NCBI GenBank assembly: GCA_020444065.1
Contig: JAHLLQ010000003.1
Coordinates: 444,979 to 508,978, forward strand
DNA length: 64,000 nt
Direction of reading: 5' to 3'
Origin: a bacterium
Lineage (GTDB): Bacteria; Sumerlaeota; Sumerlaeia; SLMS01; JAHLLQ01
Below are positions 38,480 to 62,211 of this stretch, in pieces; the stretch's first letter is position 1, and every line of letters starts with the position of its first letter. The notes beneath the pieces are model-generated. The model saw only the letters and a program-made list of their open reading frames with translations. It was not told the DNA's origin and searched no databases. Both the position numbers and the translations under genes were made by a program.

Positions 38480-40573
38480 CTACAACTCCACCGGCTCCAT
38501 CTGCAGTTCCGCCAGCTTCCGGACCAGCAGGTTCAGGAACAGGCCCACATCCGTAACGACCGGCGTCGAATCCATCGAGCCGCGATCGGCCAGCTTCGTC
38601 GCGACTGTAGGGTTGATGTCGACGCAGACCATCCGCACTCCCGCTGGGGTCATATTTCCAACGCCGATCGAGTGCAGCATCGTCGAAAGCATCAGGATCA
38701 TGTCAGCCCCATCGAGAAGCCTGGCGTACTCCGCCTGAGCCTCCACGAGGTCCATCCGCGTGTCCGGCAGGGGGCCATCGTCGCGGATTGAGCCCGCCAG
38801 GCAGAAGGGCACGCTGGCCTGGACCAACTCATACATCAGCCCGCGCTTGATCAGGCCCTGATCCACTGCAGCGGCAATGGAACCGGCACGCCGCACCGCG
38901 TTGATCGCGGCCAGATGGTGCTTATGACCGCCATTGACGGTGATTCCGCGCTGGAGATCCACGCCCAGGCTCGTACCGAACAGGGCGCGCTCGACGTCAT
39001 GCACGGCGACCGCGTTGCCGCCCAGCATGGCTCCGACGTAGCCGTTTCGTACCAATTCACAGACATGGGGCACACCGCCGGTGTGAACAACGATCGGCCC
39101 GGGAACGAGCACGATCTTGCCGCCGCGCCCGCGGATCTGGTCCATTTCCCAGGCGATCGCGTCCACGGCGACCTCGACGCGGCGCTCGCTCGACACCATC
39201 CCCGACATGAAGCGGAACTCGCTCGGGTCTTCCTGGACCTCGGTCTTCGGGTGAATTCGGATGCCGTCGATGCCGCAGACGACCATGTCGCCGGTTCGGA
39301 GGTCGCGGATCAATGTCACGGCTGCCTGGCCATCGCGAACGACGATCACGCCGTCCATGCGCTGGCCGGTGGCGCGAATCCACTCCTCCCCGACCAGGAC
39401 ATCTGTGGGATAAATCGTCGTTGCATAGAAATCTTCCGGGGCCACGCCGTCCTTCTCGACAGACACCAGGCGAGCGGGGCGATGCTCCGGATCTTCCAGA
39501 TTGCCGCCCTTTTCGAGCATTTGTGGCACGATCTCGTTCAGAATCTCGGGCGAAGGGGCGCTGACGGCCAAGCGAATGCGCGATTTGTCGCCGCGGGTCT
39601 GGCCGGCGTGGAATTCGAGCGTCTCGAAGTTGCCGCCGTTCTGGTGAATCATATCCATCACCATCGGCAGGAGCCCTGTGTCGAGCAGATGGCCCTCCAT
39701 CGTGACGATGCGACGAACCAGATCCGTCTTGTGCGCCGGGTGCCGCTTGAAGGGCTCCTCTGTCAGGCGCAGGCTGAGGCATTTGCAGCTTCCGCCGGCC
39801 TTGATGAATTCGGTCATCGGCGTGCGGACGACTTCAAAGCCCCACTCGTTCAGCTTCTGCTGCAACTCCTGCGTGCAGTTGTTCAGAATGACGGCATTGC
39901 CCGTGTCGATCGCGTTGCAGGCGAAATGCACAGCGTCGCGTTCGCTGAGCTCGAAGCGTCGCTCGGCAGGCACAAGTTCCTCAATCTGCCGACGGGCGTG
40001 CTCTTCGAAGGCCTGCGCGTAGTACATCAGGTACCCGCCCGTCAGTGGCGTGAAGCACGTATCCAGGTGGTAGAAGCGTTCGTCGACGAGCCGCAGCGGG
40101 ACGACTTCGATGTCGAGTTGCTCGGCAATATATTCGCAGGCTTCCAGGCGCGTGCGGAAGCCGTAGCCCATGAAGAGGCGCTCTGCCCCGCGATCGAAGA
40201 GCGCATCGCCGGCGCCTTCGAAGTGGAGCCCGCGCGGCATCTCGATGACCTCGAAGCCATTGCGCTCGAACCAGGCCTTGTTGACCGGCTCTTCTTTTTG
40301 GCGTTCCGGGTGGCGAAAGTGCGAATTCACCGCCTTCTTACCGTGAACCAGCCCCGCGTTCGCCGTGAAGACGAGGTCGGGCACGCCTTCTGCCGGATCG
40401 AGAATCTTGACCGTGGTCCGTTGGCCGACCTGGGCGTGCAGCGCCTGCCATTGCGCGCGGGCTTTCTGCACATCGAGTCGTTCGGTGTTCCCTTCCATCC
40501 AAGGGTTGATCACGTAGTCGACGGCGAAATACGTCGGCGGGCACATGAGGATGGAGTGACGTTTCGGGGCCAT
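38480..40573 (-). CDS. agrE: AgrE-type bifunctional arginine dihydrolase / ornithine cyclodeaminase
   Basis: Predicted to convert arginine to ornithine, two NH3 and CO2 (N-terminal guanidine-modifying domain), and ornithine to proline (C-terminal LOR/SDH, TIGR00300-type domain). The 697-aa length matches cyanobacterial AgrE. Residues of the ArgZ/AgrE active site appear in register: N23 (VINPWM), N72 (FTANAG), E119 (HFEGAGD), H169 (FYHLDTCF) and nucleophile C265 (GGSCKCLSL). The C-terminal half has the NAD-binding stretch VVHTGGVPHVCELVRNGYVG and GGHKHHLAAINAVRRAGS. ATG 40573 follows GAGGAG. Upstream on the same strand lie a cyanophycinase-fold lipoprotein, P5C dehydrogenase and proline dehydrogenase, which complete the route to glutamate. 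Confidence 0.9.
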   Translation of the reverse strand: MAPKRHSILMCPPTYFAVDYVINPWMEGNTERLDVQKARAQWQALHAQVGQRTTVKILDPAEGVPDLVFTANAGLVHGKKAVNSHFRHPERQKEEPVNKAWFERNGFEVIEMPRGLHFEGAGDALFDRGAERLFMGYGFRTRLEACEYIAEQLDIEVVPLRLVDERFYHLDTCFTPLTGGYLMYYAQAFEEHARRQIEELVPAERRFELSERDAVHFACNAIDTGNAVILNNCTQELQQKLNEWGFEVVRTPMTEFIKAGGSCKCLSLRLTEEPFKRHPAHKTDLVRRIVTMEGHLLDTGLLPMVMDMIHQNGGNFETLEFHAGQTRGDKSRIRLAVSAPSPEILNEIVPQMLEKGGNLEDPEHRPARLVSVEKDGVAPEDFYATTIYPTDVLVGEEWIRATGQRMDGVIVVRDGQAAVTLIRDLRTGDMVVCGIDGIRIHPKTEVQEDPSEFRFMSGMVSSERRVEVAVDAIAWEMDQIRGRGGKIVLVPGPIVVHTGGVPHVCELVRNGYVGAMLGGNAVAVHDVERALFGTSLGVDLQRGITVNGGHKHHLAAINAVRRAGSIAAAVDQGLIKRGLMYELVQASVPFCLAGSIRDDGPLPDTRMDLVEAQAEYARLLDGADMILMLSTMLHSIGVGNMTPAGVRMVCVDINPTVATKLADRGSMDSTPVVTDVGLFLNLLVRKLAELQMEPVEL

Positions 40574-40730
40574 GGGGGCGCTCCTCGGAGAATTTGGACC
40601 GCTGAAGCAGGGCTCCAGCATTCAATGGGGGCAAGCGATGCTCACCCCATCCGGCCGGGACGGGCCGGGAGGATCGGCATGCGATTCTCGGGTGGGGGAG
40701 CGCGAAGCGGGGCTGTCGCACTCCACAGTG

Positions 40731-41582
40731 TTACATCAGCGGCTCGATAACGACGGCCGCCAGTGCGCTCGGGTTGTCGTTCAGATGCATGACCGCTGCC
40801 TTGCCACCCAGCAGCGTCAGCTTCTGTCCGCCTTCCTCGACCAGCACGGCGCCGTCGGGCGAAATCGCCAGTGCCTTTGCGTCCGGGTTCAATCCCAACT
40901 GCGGCGCCAGCCATTCCTGGTCGGACATCGGATCGTTCATCACGAGGATGATCCAATCGTTCAACAATCCCAGGCCTTCGCGCGCTTTCCAACGCGTTTC
41001 GGCCGGGGGCGTGTAGTCTTTGCGCTTCGCATCGAGCACCACCGCGCCGAGCATCTCGGCGCCGGCGCCGGATCCGGCGATCACACCGCCGCGAGCGCTG
41101 AGTTCCAGGGTTTGTTCCCAGACCTCGGTGGGGGTTCCATCTTCACGAACCAGGCAGGGCAGCAACTGGGCCGAGCCCGCCAGCCCGGAGTAGAACCAGA
41201 CGCCCGCCGCGCCGTAGAGGATGTCGCCATTCTCGCGCGATTCCGTCCGTGCACAGTTCGTGTACGGCACATCGACCGCCTTCACAAAATCAGAGCGGCC
41301 GGCGGATTTCTCGAGAATCGACGCTGCCTCGCGCAGCGGATCGGCTGGAGAGATCGAATCGGTCGGGACGAGAGCTGCGCTGCCACCCGCCAGGCGCTCC
41401 GCGAAAGCCGCGGCCGCGAGGCCATCGGCGGCATCGATGGAACCAGCCAGGATCACGGCTCCGGCAGGAGGAGTCGCCCGCCATGGTGCATTCTCACCAT
41501 CCACGAGGTCCTTGTCCTTTCCGCCACACGCAATAACGAGGGTGGCGAGCACGATCATCGACAAAATCCGGCACGGAAACAT
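40731..41582 (-). CDS. Cyanophycinase-fold (peptidase S51-like) lipoprotein lacking catalytic residues
   Basis: A 283-aa lipoprotein; ATG 41582 with AAGGAG ahead, lipobox LVIAC (Cys19). The chain follows the cyanophycinase/S51 layout: AVILAGSIDAADGLAAAAFA, ILYGAAGVWFYSGLAGSAQL, GGVIAGSGAGAEMLGAVVLD and GLGLLNDWIILVM, then the terminal LTLLGGKAAVMHL. The key residues are gone: the nucleophile elbow G-T-S-A-G-A reads GSGAGA (170-175), placing Gly at the serine position, the DQH motif reads MSDQEW, and the late Glu block reads SPDGA. It is therefore probably a binding protein or an enzyme with altered chemistry. It sits between P5C dehydrogenase and agrE, suggesting a role in supply or sensing of arginine-rich material; that role is inference. 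Confidence 0.72.
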   Translation of the reverse strand: MFPCRILSMIVLATLVIACGGKDKDLVDGENAPWRATPPAGAVILAGSIDAADGLAAAAFAERLAGGSAALVPTDSISPADPLREAASILEKSAGRSDFVKAVDVPYTNCARTESRENGDILYGAAGVWFYSGLAGSAQLLPCLVREDGTPTEVWEQTLELSARGGVIAGSGAGAEMLGAVVLDAKRKDYTPPAETRWKAREGLGLLNDWIILVMNDPMSDQEWLAPQLGLNPDAKALAISPDGAVLVEEGGQKLTLLGGKAAVMHLNDNPSALAAVVIEPLM

Positions 41583-41693
41583 GGTCTGGCTCCTTCGGAG
41601 GAGGGGTATAAGATGCGCAGTTTCCTTCATCGGACCCACGGGCCCGCCAAAAAGCAAGCAGCCTTTGCGGTAGCGATGACGGGATTAGGGCGG

Positions 41694-41758: not shown

Positions 41759-43417
41759 TTACTCGTCCAGCGGCGCAATGCCGTGGCGCATGATGTTCTC
41801 CGCACAGGCGCGGGCGACCAGGAATTGCTTCAGGTAATCCGGTCCGCCGGCTTTCGAGCCGATGCCTGACAGTTGGAAGCCGCCGAACGGCTGGCGCCCG
41901 ACGATGGCTCCCGTGATGTGGCGGTTCAGGTACATGTTGCCGCACCGGAGTTGCACCTTGGCCTTCTCCAGGTGACTCGGCGTGCGCGAATGCAGACCGC
42001 CCGTCAGCGCGTATTCGCAGTTGTTGTGGATCTCAACCGCATGCTCGAAGTTCTTCGCTTTGATTACCGAGAGCACAGGGCCGAAGATCTCTTCCTGTGC
42101 CATGCGGCTGTCGGGATCGATATCGCCGAACAGTGCGGGAGGGACGTAGTGCCCCTTCTTGGCGAGATCTTTGCACTCGCCAACGAACGACTCCGTCCCT
42201 TCTTTTTTGCCCAGTTCGATGTAGCTCATGATCTTCTTCTGAGCCGCCGGGTCGATCACGGCGTTGACTTGGCAACCGGGGTCCCACGACTCGCTGATCT
42301 TCAGGCTCGCGACGCCTTCCTTCAGACGCGCCATCAGTTCGTCGTAGACGTCCTCGACAACGATCAGACGCGAGCACGCGGAGCACTTCTGGCCGCTGAA
42401 GCCGAAGGCGCTGTAGAGAATGTCCGGCACGGCGGCATCGAGATCCGCGCTCGAGTCGATGATGAGGCCGTTCTTGCCGCCCATCTCGGCGATCACGCGC
42501 TTGACGAAGGCTTGGCCGTGCTGCGTCTTCGCGGCTTCTTCGATGATGTGGAGACCGACTTCGCGGCTGCCCGTGAACGCGATCATCTGGACCTTCGGCG
42601 AGCGCGTCAGCTTCTCGCCGATTTCCGCGCCGGAGCCCGGAAGGAAGTTCACCACGCCGGCCGGAAGTCCACACTCCATCATGATTTCCATAATCCGGTA
42701 AACGACGAAAGGCGTTTCGCGGCTGGGCTTCCAGATCACTGTGTTACCCGTCACAAGTGCGGCGGACATCATGCCCGTCGGGATTGCCATGGGGAAGTTC
42801 CACGGTCCGATCACGCCGACGACGCCAAGTGGCAGGTAGTACAGTTCATTCTTCTCGCCGAGCAAATACGGCTGCAGGTGTTCGCGGTCGCCGATGCGCA
42901 TCATCTCGCGCGCATAGTACTCGAGGAAATCGATGCCTTCCGCGGTATCAGCGTCCGCTTCGCGCCAGGGCTTGCCCGCTTCGAAGACCATAAGCGCGGA
43001 AATCTCATCGCGGCGCTCGCGCACTTTCGCCGCCGTGTCGAGCAGCAACTGGGCGCGCTCGGCGGGTGTTGTCATCGACCACGTCTTGAAGGCTCGCTGG
43101 GCCACTTCAATCGCTTTGTCCGCCTCTTTCTCGCCGGCATACGCGCACTCGCCCAGGACGATCGATGTGTCGCTTGGGCAGGTAACTTTCAGTTTGCGCT
43201 CGGTCTTCACTTCCTTGCCGCCGATGATCAACGGCGCGTTGATCGGGAAGGACGCCTTTACCTTGTCGATGGCCTTCTGAAAGGCCTCGCGCACTTCGGC
43301 CTTCGAAAAATCGCGCAGCGGTTCATTGCGGAATTCCGTCACCGGCTTGCGCATCGGATAGCCAACAGCCGGGGTCTCCAGCTTCTTGCCGTTCTGCTTC
43401 TTAACCTTCAGCATCAT
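41759..43417 (-). CDS. 1-pyrroline-5-carboxylate (glutamate-semialdehyde) dehydrogenase
   Basis: Aldehyde dehydrogenase that oxidises P5C/glutamate semialdehyde to glutamate with NAD+. The 552-aa product belongs to the RocA/PutA-C group. It has an N-terminal extension (LRDFSKAEVREAFQKAIDKV), APLIIGGKEVKTERKL, VVGVIGPWNFPMAIPTGMMS, the cofactor region AFTGSREVGLHIIEEAAK, EMGGKNGLIIDSSADLD with the catalytic Glu, GFSGQKCSACSR with the catalytic Cys, and EIFGPVLSVIKA. The ATG overlaps the proline dehydrogenase stop by 4 bases (ATGA), so the two PutA activities are separate but translationally coupled. Confidence 0.95.
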   Translation of the reverse strand: MMLKVKKQNGKKLETPAVGYPMRKPVTEFRNEPLRDFSKAEVREAFQKAIDKVKASFPINAPLIIGGKEVKTERKLKVTCPSDTSIVLGECAYAGEKEADKAIEVAQRAFKTWSMTTPAERAQLLLDTAAKVRERRDEISALMVFEAGKPWREADADTAEGIDFLEYYAREMMRIGDREHLQPYLLGEKNELYYLPLGVVGVIGPWNFPMAIPTGMMSAALVTGNTVIWKPSRETPFVVYRIMEIMMECGLPAGVVNFLPGSGAEIGEKLTRSPKVQMIAFTGSREVGLHIIEEAAKTQHGQAFVKRVIAEMGGKNGLIIDSSADLDAAVPDILYSAFGFSGQKCSACSRLIVVEDVYDELMARLKEGVASLKISESWDPGCQVNAVIDPAAQKKIMSYIELGKKEGTESFVGECKDLAKKGHYVPPALFGDIDPDSRMAQEEIFGPVLSVIKAKNFEHAVEIHNNCEYALTGGLHSRTPSHLEKAKVQLRCGNMYLNRHITGAIVGRQPFGGFQLSGIGSKAGGPDYLKQFLVARACAENIMRHGIAPLDE

Positions 43418-44889
43418 TCTGTCTCCTTGGGATCCGCCAAGAGTTTATTCTCCGCCACGTGCTCGGTGAAGCGTTGGCGGAGGAACGATTCATTCGAAGT
43501 GTTCTCCAGGATGCGGCGTACCAGGTACGCCATTCCCGGAATCAGTTCGCCGCACGGAACGTAAATCCGTACAGGCAGTTTCATGGTACGCAGAGCTTCA
43601 GCAATCGGGCCTGCCATGCCGAAGAGCATCTGGATTTCAAAACGCGAAGGCGGCACTTTCATCTCTTTCCGCAACGCCAGCGCATGCGCGATCGAGCGCA
43701 CGTTGTGGCTGGCAATCGCGGTGCGAACCAGGTCGTGATTCTCGAGCAGCAGTCGCGTGATGCGCTCGTACATCGCATCCGTCTCGCGTTTCTCCGTGAT
43801 GACCGGCACCGGCCAATTCTTCTGTCGCGCCCAGATCTGCTCACTATCCCAGTACGCGCCCTTCACGAGGCGAATCGTGATCGGCTGATTGTTCTCGCGA
43901 ATCCATGCGAGGAACTTCCGCGCCGAATCTTCCGCGTCCCGCAGGTAAGCCTGGAATACTGTGCCAAGGTTCTCGTAGCCGCGGAATTCCTCTTCGCTCA
44001 GCAGTCGCTTGATGATTTCCAGCGTCATGTCGCGGTGCTCGTACTTCTCCATATCAATATTCACGAACGCACCGGACTTCTTTGCGGCACGTAGCAAGGG
44101 ACGCACGCGCGAGAGAACGCTCTCCGCCGTGCCATCGATATCCATGGCGTCGTACTTCGCGGTGAGGGAACTCAGCTTGATCGAGATATTCACGCGGGGG
44201 CCGCACTTGAAGCGGCGGGACTTCTCGGGCCAGGATCCAAGCAATCCGCCCAGGTTCTCGATCATATCCTTGTAGCGCTTCGCGTAGGCATCCGCTTGGG
44301 AATCGCTGATCACGAATTCGCCCAGCAGATCGAGCGAGAACATGAAGCCGCGCTCTTCCATGTTGCGAATTCGGGGTGCCACGACGCGCGGATTCTCGCC
44401 CGCGATGAACTGCTTGCCCATCGTGGCGATCACCTTGCGGCTGGCCCATGCGAGGGGCCGCTGCGTGAACCCCCGACCGCGGCCCAGGAATCGCGCGATG
44501 GATAGCAGGCTCGTGCCGCCGCCGTGTGCGAAGGACGTGCTGCTGAGGTATTCCTCCAGGTGCTCCGCCAGGATTTTCGGATCGCGCAGCGCGGGATACA
44601 CGTCGACGAAGTGCAACATTCGGAACTTCAACTCCTCGTCGTGCATCATCGCGCGCATCAGTTCCTTCTCGATGCGTTCGCGGCCGATGCCGCTGCTCTC
44701 GCGTGCCCGGACGCGGCGGAAGATCTCGCGCCCGAACCGGCGTGTGGATTCCTCCACCCGAAGGCGTTCGAGATTGAACGTCGGCAGCTCCGGGCTCGGT
44801 CGGCGGGGCTTCGGCTTGATCGGCTGGCTGGCTACCTTGCCGTTGTGCTTGCTTGGATTTTTGGTTTCAGTCGCCATCGTCGTGCTCAC
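43414..44889 (-). CDS. Proline dehydrogenase
   Basis: FAD enzyme that oxidises proline to P5C. The 491-aa product covers the PutA proline-dehydrogenase region: an N-terminal helical part (RVEESTRRFGREIFRRVRAR), then the barrel with FSLDLLGEFVISDSQADAYA, GPRVNISIKLSSLTAKYDAM, FVNIDMEKYEHRDMTLEIIK, TVFQAYLRDAEDSARKF, IRLVKGAYWDSEQI, ASHNVRSIAHAL and FEIQMLFGMAGPIAEALR, ending with VRIYVPCGELIPGMAYLVRR, whose Arg pair binds the proline carboxylate. I place the start at GTG 44889 because GGAGG sits 5 bases ahead; ATG 44877 is too far from it. It leads the P5C dehydrogenase gene. Confidence 0.94.
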   Translation of the reverse strand: MSTTMATETKNPSKHNGKVASQPIKPKPRRPSPELPTFNLERLRVEESTRRFGREIFRRVRARESSGIGRERIEKELMRAMMHDEELKFRMLHFVDVYPALRDPKILAEHLEEYLSSTSFAHGGGTSLLSIARFLGRGRGFTQRPLAWASRKVIATMGKQFIAGENPRVVAPRIRNMEERGFMFSLDLLGEFVISDSQADAYAKRYKDMIENLGGLLGSWPEKSRRFKCGPRVNISIKLSSLTAKYDAMDIDGTAESVLSRVRPLLRAAKKSGAFVNIDMEKYEHRDMTLEIIKRLLSEEEFRGYENLGTVFQAYLRDAEDSARKFLAWIRENNQPITIRLVKGAYWDSEQIWARQKNWPVPVITEKRETDAMYERITRLLLENHDLVRTAIASHNVRSIAHALALRKEMKVPPSRFEIQMLFGMAGPIAEALRTMKLPVRIYVPCGELIPGMAYLVRRILENTSNESFLRQRFTEHVAENKLLADPKETE

Positions 44890-45403
44890 TAGCACCTCCG
44901 TTCGGCGGAATTCACGTCGATACTTTCTACCCACCGGGGCACAGCAGTGCAACGTGAATAGGAAAGCCTATCCACGGCGTGCCCTGCGTTCGCTTGTTCG
45001 AGGTCGGTGTTCACAGGTCCGGCGGGCGGCCGCGACGAAAGCGGAAACGGCCCGGCTGGCGAGCCAGGCGTTCTTCGCCCGTCCGTTCCCTGGTCCGTCT
45101 CGCAATGGAAGTCCTGGATGCAATCATGGGGCGAAAATCCTCACGCGGAACGGGGAAAGCAAGGAGTTTCTATGACACTTTCCCTGGTCCCATCCGAGCA
45201 TTTCTCTCCGCCCTGCGGGATATTTTTGGACGCTTGTTCTTATCGAGGTGTCATAATCGGGATTCGAGAAGTCCTCATTTTTTTTGGAGCGAAAGTGCTT
45301 GCCCTATAGCCGCGCGCCCGGGCAGAGGGACGAGACTGGGGCGCCGTTCGCACCAAATCAGGCGGCGCACCGCCCATGCTCACTATATGACGGAGGACGT
45401 CGA
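44890..45403. other. Divergent intergenic region between proline dehydrogenase and a prepilin gene
   Basis: About 510 bases without a convincing gene. It holds the promoters of both genes. A T-run lies at 45282-45289, an 8-bp dyad TATGACAC/GTGTCATA at about 45171/45247, and GCGCCG...CGGCGC pairs near 45341-45367. I found no clear sigma-54 site or riboswitch. Confidence 0.35.
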
Positions 45404-46072
45404 ATGCACGTAACACATCTTATTTCCCGAGACCGCCGAGGCTTCACACTGATCGAGCTCCTGATCGTTGTCGCCATCATTGCCATCCTGGCGGCAATCG
45501 CTGTTCCGAACTTCCTCGAAGCACAGGTTCGTTCCAAGGTCTCCCGCGCCAAGTCCGACATGCGGACGCTGGCCACGGGCCTGGAATCTTACGTAATCGA
45601 TTACAATCACTATCCGGACGTCGACCGCACGACAATCTCTCCTCCGATCAAGTTGGGTCTGGAGTATTCGCGCCCCGCACTGACGCTGCTTTCGACGCCA
45701 GTTTCCTACATCACCAGCCCTCTGCTGATCGATCCGTTCGCGGTCGGCTCGACAAACACACGCTACTACGGATATGCCAACTGCGACGCCGCACTCCTGA
45801 ATCCAGATCTCTCCGCTGTCGGCGCAAGCTATGCCACCGTGGATAATAAGCCGCGATTCGACAACCACCGGTGGGTCCTGCAAAGCGTTGGTCCGGATGT
45901 CACCAACTTCGCACTGGCAAGTCCCGCCGAATACCCCGACCAGGGCTTCAACAACGCCTATCACTTCCTGGTCGATCCTCAGGATGGCGTGGGAGCCAAC
46001 TTCATTTACGACCCGACGAATGGCACGGTTTCAGTGGGCGACATCGTTCGCACGGCCTTGATAACCGACTGA
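45404..46072 (+). CDS. Type IV pilin-like (prepilin) protein, first copy
   Basis: A 222-aa prepilin. The leader HVTHLISRDRRG is cut after Gly by a prepilin peptidase; the mature N-terminus FTLIELLIVVAIIAILAAIA has the conserved Glu5, followed by VPNFLEAQVRSKVSRAKSDM. The C-terminal half has a disulfide-poor beta domain and ends FIYDPTNGTVSVGDIVRTAL, an ending shared with the prepilin at 56092-56757. ATG 45404 follows GGAGG (45392-45396). Such proteins form type IV pili or type II secretion pseudopili. No assembly genes are in the window. A terminator follows directly, so it is transcribed alone. Confidence 0.9.
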   Translation: MHVTHLISRDRRGFTLIELLIVVAIIAILAAIAVPNFLEAQVRSKVSRAKSDMRTLATGLESYVIDYNHYPDVDRTTISPPIKLGLEYSRPALTLLSTPVSYITSPLLIDPFAVGSTNTRYYGYANCDAALLNPDLSAVGASYATVDNKPRFDNHRWVLQSVGPDVTNFALASPAEYPDQGFNNAYHFLVDPQDGVGANFIYDPTNGTVSVGDIVRTALITD

Positions 46073-59097: not shown

Positions 59098-62000
59098 TCA
59101 GCGCGCGGCCACTTCCACCGCATCCTCTGTCGGTGCTTCGGCGGGGGGGCAGTAGACGCGCCAGCGGCCGGGGCCGGCGGTGGCGTCGAGGCCGGCTTCG
59201 AGCAGCGGGCACACAGTGATCTTGCGGCCGGCGATGCGTTGGTAGATGCGCGGCGGGTCGAGCGGTTCGCCGCGGAGCCGCAGGCCGGTGTGGCCTGGGA
59301 AGTCCTTCAACAATGTCAGCAGTCGCTTCAGGTGTTTGCCTTCGAGACGGCTGACATCGATCTCGAGTTCCGTGGCGCGTTCGGCGCGAATCACACACGC
59401 TTCGAGCGTTTCCGCAGCGTGTGCGCGCAGCACCCATTGGAAGTCTTCGCGGCGCAGGCGTCCGGTGACGACAACGAGGCGACCGGCGAGATTGTCCGAC
59501 GTCAGGAACTGCGCGCGCGCACCGGAGGCTTCGATCAGACATCCGGCCAGATCGGCCAGGCACTCGTCGTCCTCTTCCTTTTCCACGGCGTCGATCGTGC
59601 CGACCAGGCAAACGTCCTGGCCTCGATCGCGGAAGGCCAGATCGCGCGGCGGGCGCAGTTGGGCGCGTTCGATGAAGTCTTCGTGCAGCAGCAAGGGGTC
59701 GATGGCCGTTTCGAACCCGAGAACCTCGCGCTCTTCTGCCGCGAGCCACTCCTCGGTTTCTGCTTCCGGTTCCGCGATGACCGGTCCCCCGTCTTCCTGA
59801 TTCTCCAGCCACCATTCCGTGCCGTGGCCGAAGAACTGCAGCGGATCTTCCGTAGCCGAGCGACGCCGACGCGGGCGCAGCAATCCATCGAGCTTTTCGA
59901 GCTGCGCGAGCAACTCCTTGCGGCTCTCGCCGACGGAGTCGAGTCCGCCCGCGCGGATCAAGCGTTCGATGTGGCTGGTGCGCAGGCGACGGGGATCGGT
60001 GCGGCGCAGCAGGTCGGCCAGATCGTTGTAGGTCATTTCGCGCCGAACGGTTTCCAGTTCATCCGCGGCCATCTTGGAGAAGCTGTCGATCGCCTGGAAG
60101 CCGACGCGCACGGCGTTGTCTTCGGGGGCCCATCGCCAGGTGGAACAATTCAGATCCACGGGTCGGATTTCGATACCGAGCGCGCGCGCTTCGCCGAGCA
60201 GTGCCGTGCGCCGACGGCCGTCATCGCCGGCATCGCTAAGCGCGGCCGCCAGGTACGCGGACGTGTCGGTGGCCTTGATGCCCGCGCAGGAGTGGGCCAT
60301 CAGCAAATCGCCGAAGTCGACGCTGCGCCTCTTGGTGTTCAGCACGCGGATCAGGCTCGTCAGGTCCGACGGCTGCAGCTTGCGCAGGCGCCGCTTCACC
60401 GTCGGCGGCTCCAGGATCGAGATGCCCTGGGTGTTGCCTTCGCGAATCAGTTTGTAGGTCTTCGGATCGTCGTGCGGGATCGATTCGGGATCGAAGTGCC
60501 GGTTGCCCTGCTCCCGAACCCAGCGCGTCGCCTCATCCACCAGGTCGAGCATTCGCGAGTGGCTGAGCGCGATGCGGCTGAAGCCCGCGCCTTCCAGCGC
60601 TTCGGCGTCCCACTGGCTGACAACACCGCCGCCCGGCAGCGCCGTGCGAGGCAGGGTCTTCTCGATCGATTCGACGCAGAATGTGAATTCGTTCTCGACC
60701 GGTCGCAGCATTCGCGCGCGCCCATCCAGCCGGCGCGTCATCCACGCGAGCGCCCGCACATCCGTCAGCAGCAGATCGGGATCCGGTTCTTCGTTCGGCG
60801 GGGCCAGATCGGCCGCCTCTTTCGCGGTCGTCCACTCGGTGCTGCGAACCAGGTGGCGCGCGCGCTTGCTGTCCATGCCGGCCAGTTCGAGCGTGCGCTC
60901 GAGCGCCGCCGACGTCGTCCAGCGCTTCCATTTGCCGACCGACACGACGCGGCCTTCGAACAAATCGTCCAGCGCCTGAACGGCCTCGTCGGCCTGCGTG
61001 CGCGGGACGCAGAACTCCAATAGCGGGAACTGGCGTTCGGTTCCTTCGGGCAGTGCGAACGGCAGATCGAATCGCAGCGGATCGACGCGGGTCAGGCCCA
61101 GCAGCGACGCAATAAGGCTGTTTGTCAGGAAGCCGGCTCCCGGACCGCGCAGCACGCCGCGATCGCGGAACTCTTCGTTCAATCGCGCCAGGCAGACGAT
61201 GGCCGGCGCCAGCCCGGCCGCTTCGATGTCGCGGAATTCGCGATTCAGACGTTCGCGCCACCTGCTCGGCAGATCGCCGTACCGCTCGCCAGCCACGGCA
61301 AAAACCTGGTTCCAGATAAACGACTCGGCATCCACGCCGCGGCTGAAATCGAATCGCGGAAAGCGACGAGCGGCGCGCGGCAAATCGAAATCACAAAGGC
61401 CGGCCACGCGGCCAGTGTTCTCGATGGCTTCGGGGTAATCGGCAAACCACTCGGCAATCGCTTCGGTGCTGGCGACATGGGCGCGCTCATGCAGCGGGCG
61501 CTGCAACTCGCCGAGCATTCGCGGGCGATTCGGCAGGTCGACGACTTCCTGGCGGTAGAAACGCCACGCCGCATCATCCTCCGGTCCCGCGCAGTGAATC
61601 TCCGGCACAGCCACGGGGGCCAGTTCATAGTGCGCTGCCACCGCCCACAGACCCTTTGCGGCGCGCTTGCCGATCTCCGGCGTGGGCGCGGGCAAGGACA
61701 GGAAAATCTGTTCCGCGGGGACCGCGCTCAGCAATCCGTCGACGAACGTTTCGATCTCTTCGACGCATTTGCCGAGAACGAGTTCGGTGAGTTCGCCCTT
61801 TTCGCCGCCGACCAGGTAAAGCAATCCGGCGGGTTCAGCCAGCAACTCCTCCCACGTCAGGTGCGCGGGAAAACGCTCCAGCACGCGATCCTGCCCGCGG
61901 TTCACCAGCGCGACGAGGCGTTGCCATCCCGTCTGATCCATCGCGAGCAACCGCACGCGCATCGTGCGGCCTGCGAATGTGTCTGTCCCAAAGGGGAGCA

Positions 62001-62211
62001 CTTCGACTTCGAGACCCAGGATCGGCTGGATTCCCAGGCGTTTTGCCACGGCCACGAACCCTGGGGCTCCAGCCACGGTCATCGTGTCGACCAGCGCCAT
62101 GGCGTCCTGGCCGTGCCGCACGGCCGCACGGCACAAATGCTCCACGCGCGCCAGGCTCTCGCCCAGGCTGAAATCGCTTCGCCCTCCAAGGTGCACGAAT
62201 CGGTCGAACAT
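59098..62211 (-). CDS. DnaE-like (DNA polymerase III alpha) paralogue lacking catalytic residues
   Basis: A 1037-aa protein that keeps the DnaE scaffold: an N-terminal PHP-like domain, RGPGAGFLTNSLIASLLGLT (355-) with VDPLRFDLPFALP in the palm, the fingers region (IPHDDPKTYKLIREGNTQGI), a helix-hairpin-helix region (IEIRPVDLNCSTWRW, VGFQAIDSFSKMAADELETV) and an OB fold (about 870-960, VCLVGTIDAVEKEEDDECLA). All three polymerase aspartates are missing. The PDxDxDF site reads QFPLLEF (394-400), and the later KFDFLGL block reads RIALSHS (545-551). The PHP metal motifs are also lost: HLHxHS reads HLGGRS, and LTDH reads LVDT. The frame is intact, so it is more likely a structural or accessory protein than a decayed gene. 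No imuA/imuB or lexA is adjacent. Confidence 0.85.
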   Translation of the reverse strand: MFDRFVHLGGRSDFSLGESLARVEHLCRAAVRHGQDAMALVDTMTVAGAPGFVAVAKRLGIQPILGLEVEVLPFGTDTFAGRTMRVRLLAMDQTGWQRLVALVNRGQDRVLERFPAHLTWEELLAEPAGLLYLVGGEKGELTELVLGKCVEEIETFVDGLLSAVPAEQIFLSLPAPTPEIGKRAAKGLWAVAAHYELAPVAVPEIHCAGPEDDAAWRFYRQEVVDLPNRPRMLGELQRPLHERAHVASTEAIAEWFADYPEAIENTGRVAGLCDFDLPRAARRFPRFDFSRGVDAESFIWNQVFAVAGERYGDLPSRWRERLNREFRDIEAAGLAPAIVCLARLNEEFRDRGVLRGPGAGFLTNSLIASLLGLTRVDPLRFDLPFALPEGTERQFPLLEFCVPRTQADEAVQALDDLFEGRVVSVGKWKRWTTSAALERTLELAGMDSKRARHLVRSTEWTTAKEAADLAPPNEEPDPDLLLTDVRALAWMTRRLDGRARMLRPVENEFTFCVESIEKTLPRTALPGGGVVSQWDAEALEGAGFSRIALSHSRMLDLVDEATRWVREQGNRHFDPESIPHDDPKTYKLIREGNTQGISILEPPTVKRRLRKLQPSDLTSLIRVLNTKRRSVDFGDLLMAHSCAGIKATDTSAYLAAALSDAGDDGRRRTALLGEARALGIEIRPVDLNCSTWRWAPEDNAVRVGFQAIDSFSKMAADELETVRREMTYNDLADLLRRTDPRRLRTSHIERLIRAGGLDSVGESRKELLAQLEKLDGLLRPRRRRSATEDPLQFFGHGTEWWLENQEDGGPVIAEPEAETEEWLAAEEREVLGFETAIDPLLLHEDFIERAQLRPPRDLAFRDRGQDVCLVGTIDAVEKEEDDECLADLAGCLIEASGARAQFLTSDNLAGRLVVVTGRLRREDFQWVLRAHAAETLEACVIRAERATELEIDVSRLEGKHLKRLLTLLKDFPGHTGLRLRGEPLDPPRIYQRIAGRKITVCPLLEAGLDATAGPGRWRVYCPPAEAPTEDAVEVAAR

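Follow-up and report, generated by a model that had tools for sequence, protein, structure and literature searches.

The DNA analysed here (the window, 64,000 nucleotides of a Sumerlaeota genome) carries, at positions 40731–41582 of the minus strand, a gene for a putative lipoprotein of 283 residues, here called P0001, in which the ORF translation, the TIGR02069 model, an S51 profile and a fold model point to a degenerate S51 (cyanophycinase-fold) protein. The frame comprises 283 codons with an ATG start and zero internal stops, a stop-free run expected by chance with a probability of 3.9e-4 at the local base composition, and inspection shows a ribosome-binding-site-like GAAGGAG (41590–41596, minus strand) 7 nt ahead of the start codon at 41582. 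The CAI of the gene is 0.627, compared with 0.610–0.741 for eight other ORFs of the window and 0.356–0.522 for the five other frames. A promoter scan at the gene returned zero promoter-like sites, and terminator-like sites were fewer than in shuffled sequences. By inspection, a hydrophobic N-terminal stretch is followed by the lipobox VIA-Cys19, and by these two features P0001 is a predicted bacterial lipoprotein and signal peptidase II substrate, as a preliminary description of this DNA had claimed.

Profile searches identify the neighbouring genes, all of which run in the same direction as that of P0001. Next downstream, after a gap of 109 nt, lies a gene for an ArgZ/AgrE-type arginine dihydrolase with an ornithine cyclodeaminase domain (38480–40621, minus strand), which scores 1016 bits on NF052231, slightly below the 1025-bit cut-off. 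Next upstream, after 176 nt, lies the gene for L-glutamate gamma-semialdehyde dehydrogenase (P5CDH; 41759–43417, minus strand), the start of which overlaps by 4 nt with the gene for proline dehydrogenase (PRODH; 43414–44952, minus strand). PRODH, P5CDH and ArgZ form an arginine-to-proline-to-glutamate route, so that the gene indeed lies among arginine-catabolic genes, as previously described. Elsewhere in the window, positions 45284–46072 (plus strand) encode a type IV pilin-like protein with a near-identical FTLIELLIVVAIIAILAAIAVPNFLEAQ start found at many related loci, and proteins of this kind recur beside unrelated genes across the genomes examined. Positions 59098–62211 (minus strand) encode a DnaE-like protein of 1037 residues with PHP, NTPase, finger and HHH_6 domains that scores far under every curated NCBIfam cut-off. 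Because what we take to be its PHP metal-ligand motif and its catalytic aspartate motif both seem, by eye, to be replaced, this protein may be a second dead enzyme of the window.

The relationship of P0001 to S51 proteins is distant. TIGR02069 (cyanophycinase) matches it with an E-value of 3.1e-6 and 26.8 bits, under the cut-off of 126.6 bits, and a Pfam search of the protein returned zero families even at an E-value of 1, PF03575 being among those unmatched. To gather relatives, S51 genes were scanned for with a pattern containing SAGAA, which requires Ser at the nucleophile elbow; together with alignment, the scan gave 78 S51 loci and is blind to other serine-less members, and the 78-row alignment omits one of the 78 (L172), for which the frame picked looked wrong. 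P0001 scores 66.1 bits on a profile of the 77 S51 relatives that had been re-aligned in its absence, and shuffling its mature part 1000 times gave at most 4.0 bits; a second profile, built from 13 Sumerlaeota relatives, gives 37.8 bits versus 5.2 for shuffles. The S51 layout recognised in the preliminary description is thus upheld by both the profile and TIGR02069.

P0001 is likewise predicted to have the S51/cyanophycinase fold. AlphaFold2 with the 78-row alignment yielded a model with a pLDDT of 82.2 and a pTM of 0.82, a fold partly given by the S51 proteins of the input alignment, the single-sequence model having a pLDDT of 37.6. In a structural comparison, this model matched the cyanophycinase structures 7uqv (Z 25.7 over 227 residues at 2.4 A), 3en0 (Z 24.8) and 7uqw (Z 24.7), with 226–227 residues superposed at 2.4–2.5 A in all three cases, and the proposed check of a predicted structure against CphB (3en0 and 7uqw) therefore came out in favour of the S51 assignment. 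The cyanophycinase-like structure 6nqc (Z 20.8) and peptidase E types (Z 16.1 to 18.5) rank next, all other structures have Z-scores of 7.4 or less, and Foldseek concurs with the cyanophycinase match (E-value 9.4e-13). A reading of P0001 as a two-lobed periplasmic binding protein would depend on a best Z-score of 7.4, which lies in the range classed as common.

The catalytic residues of the family are replaced in P0001. At the nucleophile elbow, codons 170–175 (41058–41075, minus strand, computed from the ORF start) read GSGAGA instead of GTSAGA, as first described, and place Gly172 at the position at which 77/77 relatives have Ser, a residue fixed in them by the scan pattern. The late Glu block reads SPDGA (residues 241–245), also as described, and in phmmer, alignment and profile comparisons its first four codons, 241–244 (40851–40862, minus strand), occupy the Asp-Glu block, with Pro242 at the position of the catalytic Glu found in 76/77 relatives. 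For the catalytic His our reading departs from the earlier one, which had the DQH motif changed to DQE. Three ungapped comparisons (phmmer versus 7uqv, the 78-row alignment and the independent 77-relative profile) place Leu213-Val214-Met215 (codons 213–215; 40938–40946, minus strand) on DQH, and thus Met215 at the position that is His in 77/77 relatives. The sequence DQE (codons 221–223; 40914–40922, minus strand) lies eight residues further on, and in the 78-row alignment it falls on a conserved Arg-Gly-Arg stretch. The contrary register, with DQE on DQH, appears only in a 14-row alignment of P0001 and 13 Sumerlaeota relatives, where it needs an eight-residue gap, and we rejected it on the strength of the three ungapped comparisons. 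The catalytic His is missing under both registers, the contrary one giving Glu, and the absence of Ser-His-Glu machinery reported earlier is therefore independent of this correction. As judged from these replacements, hydrolysis by the S51 mechanism would be impossible for P0001.

The pocket beside the nucleophile appears to have changed to the same extent. According to PMC3235067, which cites Law et al. 2009, Gln101, Asp172, Gln173, Arg178, Arg180 and Arg183 of CphB are critical and form a pocket beside Ser132. At the positions named there, P0001 has Ser137, Leu213, Val214, Met219, Asp221 and Trp224, that is, 6/6 are replaced, four of them by nonpolar side chains, and of the nine catalytic and pocket positions together, five carry Leu, Val, Met, Met and Trp. 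P0001 keeps 0/9 of these functional positions versus 14/23 other columns that are at least 90% conserved in the 77 relatives (Fisher p 0.0018), and 0/8 versus 10/18 once the columns dictated by the pattern of the scan are removed (p 0.0095). These counts indicate that P0001 has lost mainly functional residues and has retained its scaffold.

We searched for the rest of a cyanophycin pathway in the window's genome and in other genomes. In profile searches, the window's genome had no match to PF03575 and none to PF01112 (the asparaginase-type isoaspartyl peptidase family), and P0001 was its sole TIGR02069 match; an active S51 partner of P0001 in the same genome was rejected on these grounds. The search for cphA suggested in the preliminary description gave no cyanophycin synthetase over the cut-off in any of 40 genomes, the window's own included, with a model that matches weakly and partially in all 40 and put 1/14 controls over its cut-off. 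An IadA-type dipeptidase (TIGR01975) was weakly matched in 37/40 genomes and over the cut-off in none. TIGR02069 matches occur in 11/40 genomes, the window's own counted; those of G000 (26.6 bits) and G004 (24.7 bits) are weak, and the best matches in the other nine genomes reach at least 86 bits. All eight of these nine genomes in which the proteins were read (those of G018 were left out) have the elbow Ser and a His at the DQH position. PF01112 (isoaspartyl aminopeptidase/asparaginase family) is present in 9/40 genomes and co-occurs with S51, being found in 7/9 genomes with an active-looking S51 protein versus 2/31 others (p 6e-5).

In related Sumerlaeota these genes are repeatedly neighbours. 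Among six genomes with both an active-looking S51 gene and ArgZ, the two lie on one contig in four (G006, G008, G011 and G022) and on separate contigs in G003 and G033, and the ArgZ-linked S51 gene of G011 belongs to a second, non-CphE-like type (GGTSAGL). S51 and PF01112 genes share a contig in G003, G008, G009 and G022. Other genes near the Sumerlaeota S51 loci encode DcuC-type, OPT and Na+/H+ antiporter transporters, LysR regulators and an M14 carboxypeptidase. Five loci, L057 (G008), L058 (G006), L063 (G022), L074 (G009) and L177 (G003), are clusters with varying combinations of a secreted active-looking cyanophycinase, PF01112, ArgZ and transporters, and without a cyanophycin synthetase, and these clusters likely serve the use of external cyanophycin. 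This pattern, S51 with PF01112 and no synthetase over the cut-off, agrees with PMC10206079, which reports clustering of the genes for cyanophycinase and isoaspartyl dipeptidase in genomes without cphA1.

The second S51 type in the phylum is also exported (L072:7098-9148, L074:3259-4272, L060:1835-2788, L075:6518-7474 and L076:6387-7292); it has GGTSAGL or GGLSAGC at the elbow and D-S/T-H instead of DQH, forms its own clade, and is present as two tandem copies in G003. The same genome encodes an arginine dihydrolase domain that lacks the cyclodeaminase portion (L069:4850-7495, minus strand), and an adjoining gene encodes an apparently exported BPL_N-domain protein (L069:7471-8388, minus strand).

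Two other genomes from the bacterial family of the window's genome encode another degenerate S51 lipoprotein, at L176:7541-8626 in G004 (P0003) and at L185:964-2205 in G002. Profile comparison ties it to S51 with an E-value of 4e-17; it has DDS or NNS for DQH and Gly for Glu, and it retains a Ser in GGSGW. The two copies are 55% identical, with a dN of 0.36 and a dS of 2.04 (NG86), a ratio of about 0.18 in which dS is near saturation, and this protein is under purifying selection. Its gene lies beside those for a pilin and a response regulator, arginine genes being absent from the locus, and a search of G002 and G004 for PF01112 gave no match. P0001 resembles this lipoprotein in the sequence after the lipobox, and its two non-lipobox cysteines each fall within three alignment columns of a cysteine of this lipoprotein. 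BLASTP of P0001 versus the G004 protein gave no match (E-value 0.87), and hhalign of P0001 versus the G002/G004 pair gave an E-value of 0.0027 with a probability of only 11%, because of which we do not claim orthology. A 49-row tree, in which 26 of the 78 scanned S51 loci were used, joins P0001 with the G002/G004 proteins at 78/87 on long branches, that of P0001 being 2.3 to 3.1 changes per site, and dropping either side from the tree sends the other elsewhere. Orthology is thus a possibility, and independent loss is just as possible. No full-length orthologue of P0001 was found among 385 other genomes, and P0001 alone, run against 84,980 species genomes, had zero matches.

Altogether, these observations lead us to a model, which we consider probably correct, whereby P0001 is a maintained exported pseudoenzyme derived from a secreted CphE-like S51 cyanophycinase and has a non-catalytic role. 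In this model, an ancestor would have used external cyanophycin by way of a secreted cyanophycinase, an isoaspartyl peptidase, ArgZ and finally PRODH and P5CDH; the lineage of the window would then have lost the cyanophycinase and isoaspartyl peptidase steps while keeping the arginine-to-glutamate genes, and the former cyanophycinase gene would have been retained for its non-catalytic role. Because related Sumerlaeota carry active-looking S51 genes beside PF01112 and ArgZ genes, the P0001 gene probably descended from such an external-cyanophycin locus, the front end of which was lost. The position beside ArgZ may also be due to chance, since S51 and ArgZ genes lie apart in 2/6 genomes with both. 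The role of P0001 would most likely lie in binding or in structure at the outer face of a membrane, and involve a pocket turned largely nonpolar. P0001 would work without an active S51 partner, and not as the regulatory subunit of one, because none was found in the genome. It is tempting to speculate further, although we hold this extension to be doubtful, that a single bacterial family within the Sumerlaeota has a lineage of surface pseudo-cyanophycinases of its own, S51 lipoproteins which in three genomes (the window's, G002 and G004) would have lost catalysis, gained two cysteines, come under purifying selection and, in place of cyanophycin, bound a new ligand or partner of probably lower polarity.

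Three other readings were weighed against a maintained pseudoenzyme. In the first, the gene is a relic that drifts without function after the loss of the cyanophycin steps, as would fit the disappearance of the other steps from the genome, the very long branch of P0001 and the missing C-terminal part that CphE relatives have. Drift so deep would, however, be expected to break the frame, and the frame, the ribosome-binding site and the lipobox are intact, codon usage is like that of the neighbouring genes, and most of the conserved non-functional columns counted above are kept. We prefer a maintained role over a dying gene on account of the intact frame, export signal, codon usage and scaffold and of the purifying selection on the comparable G002/G004 lipoprotein, and we regard the relic as unlikely. 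In the second, put forward in the preliminary description, P0001 serves at the cell surface as a binding protein or sensor for arginine-rich peptides, beta-Asp-Arg or cyanophycin, a proposal to which the fold, the arginine-gene neighbourhood and the fact that many lipoproteins are binding proteins lend some appeal. Yet all six of the pocket residues reported in PMC3235067, three arginines included, are replaced, and searches of the genome yielded no cyanophycin pathway (no synthetase over the cut-off, no PF01112, no PF03575). It is improbable that the known pocket binds cyanophycin; another surface may do so. Descent accounts better for the arginine-gene context, since active S51 genes adjoin ArgZ in related genomes; we therefore do not retain this proposal and judge it very unlikely. 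Least credible of all is catalysis by a rebuilt active site, based for example on Ser171, which a three-row alignment sets on the Ser of the G002/G004 proteins, or on the acidic group Asp221–Glu223, DQE being a polar cluster by sequence, given that no examined register places a His at the DQH position and that the elbow aligns free of gaps with 77 active-looking relatives, with Gly at the nucleophile.

If P0001 is indeed a maintained pseudoenzyme, a dead S51 protein was kept, not discarded, and can be traced to its kind of source locus. It would also illustrate that a neighbourhood of arginine genes does not by itself make a cyanophycin receptor. Moreover, several Sumerlaeota likely have a pathway for the cyanophycin of others, consisting of a secreted cyanophycinase, an isoaspartyl peptidase and an arginine dihydrolase, without a synthetase. 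In the open-licence PMC literature, we found no prior account of cyanophycin use by Sumerlaeota or of an inactive or pseudoenzyme cyanophycinase.

Dead relatives of peptidases are generally common, and P0001 can be set beside several known members of its fold family. Peptidase E and aspartyl dipeptidase (1fy2 and 6a4r) belong to the same fold family and match the P0001 model with Z-scores of 18.0 to 18.5, under those of the cyanophycinases; they are active enzymes, unlike P0001. The G002/G004 protein is, like P0001, a predicted lipoprotein with an S51 signal that has lost His and Glu, and differs in having Ser in a broken motif (GGSGW), a retained C-terminal region and another locus. Intracellular CphB of Synechocystis (3en0 and 7uqw) and the Pseudobacteroides protein 7uqv share the predicted fold, at Z-scores of 24.7 to 25.7, whereas their identity to P0001 is 16–20%, the functional residues of P0001 are replaced and P0001 is predicted to be exported. 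Finally, we note that P0001 resembles CphE, the extracellular S51 cyanophycinase of Pseudomonas, in its export signal and S51 domain and, as we infer, in its origin, and that it differs from CphE in lacking the Ser, His and Glu, the pocket residues and the C-terminal region. Active-looking relatives within the phylum are secreted, and their genes adjoin those for ArgZ and PF01112 proteins.
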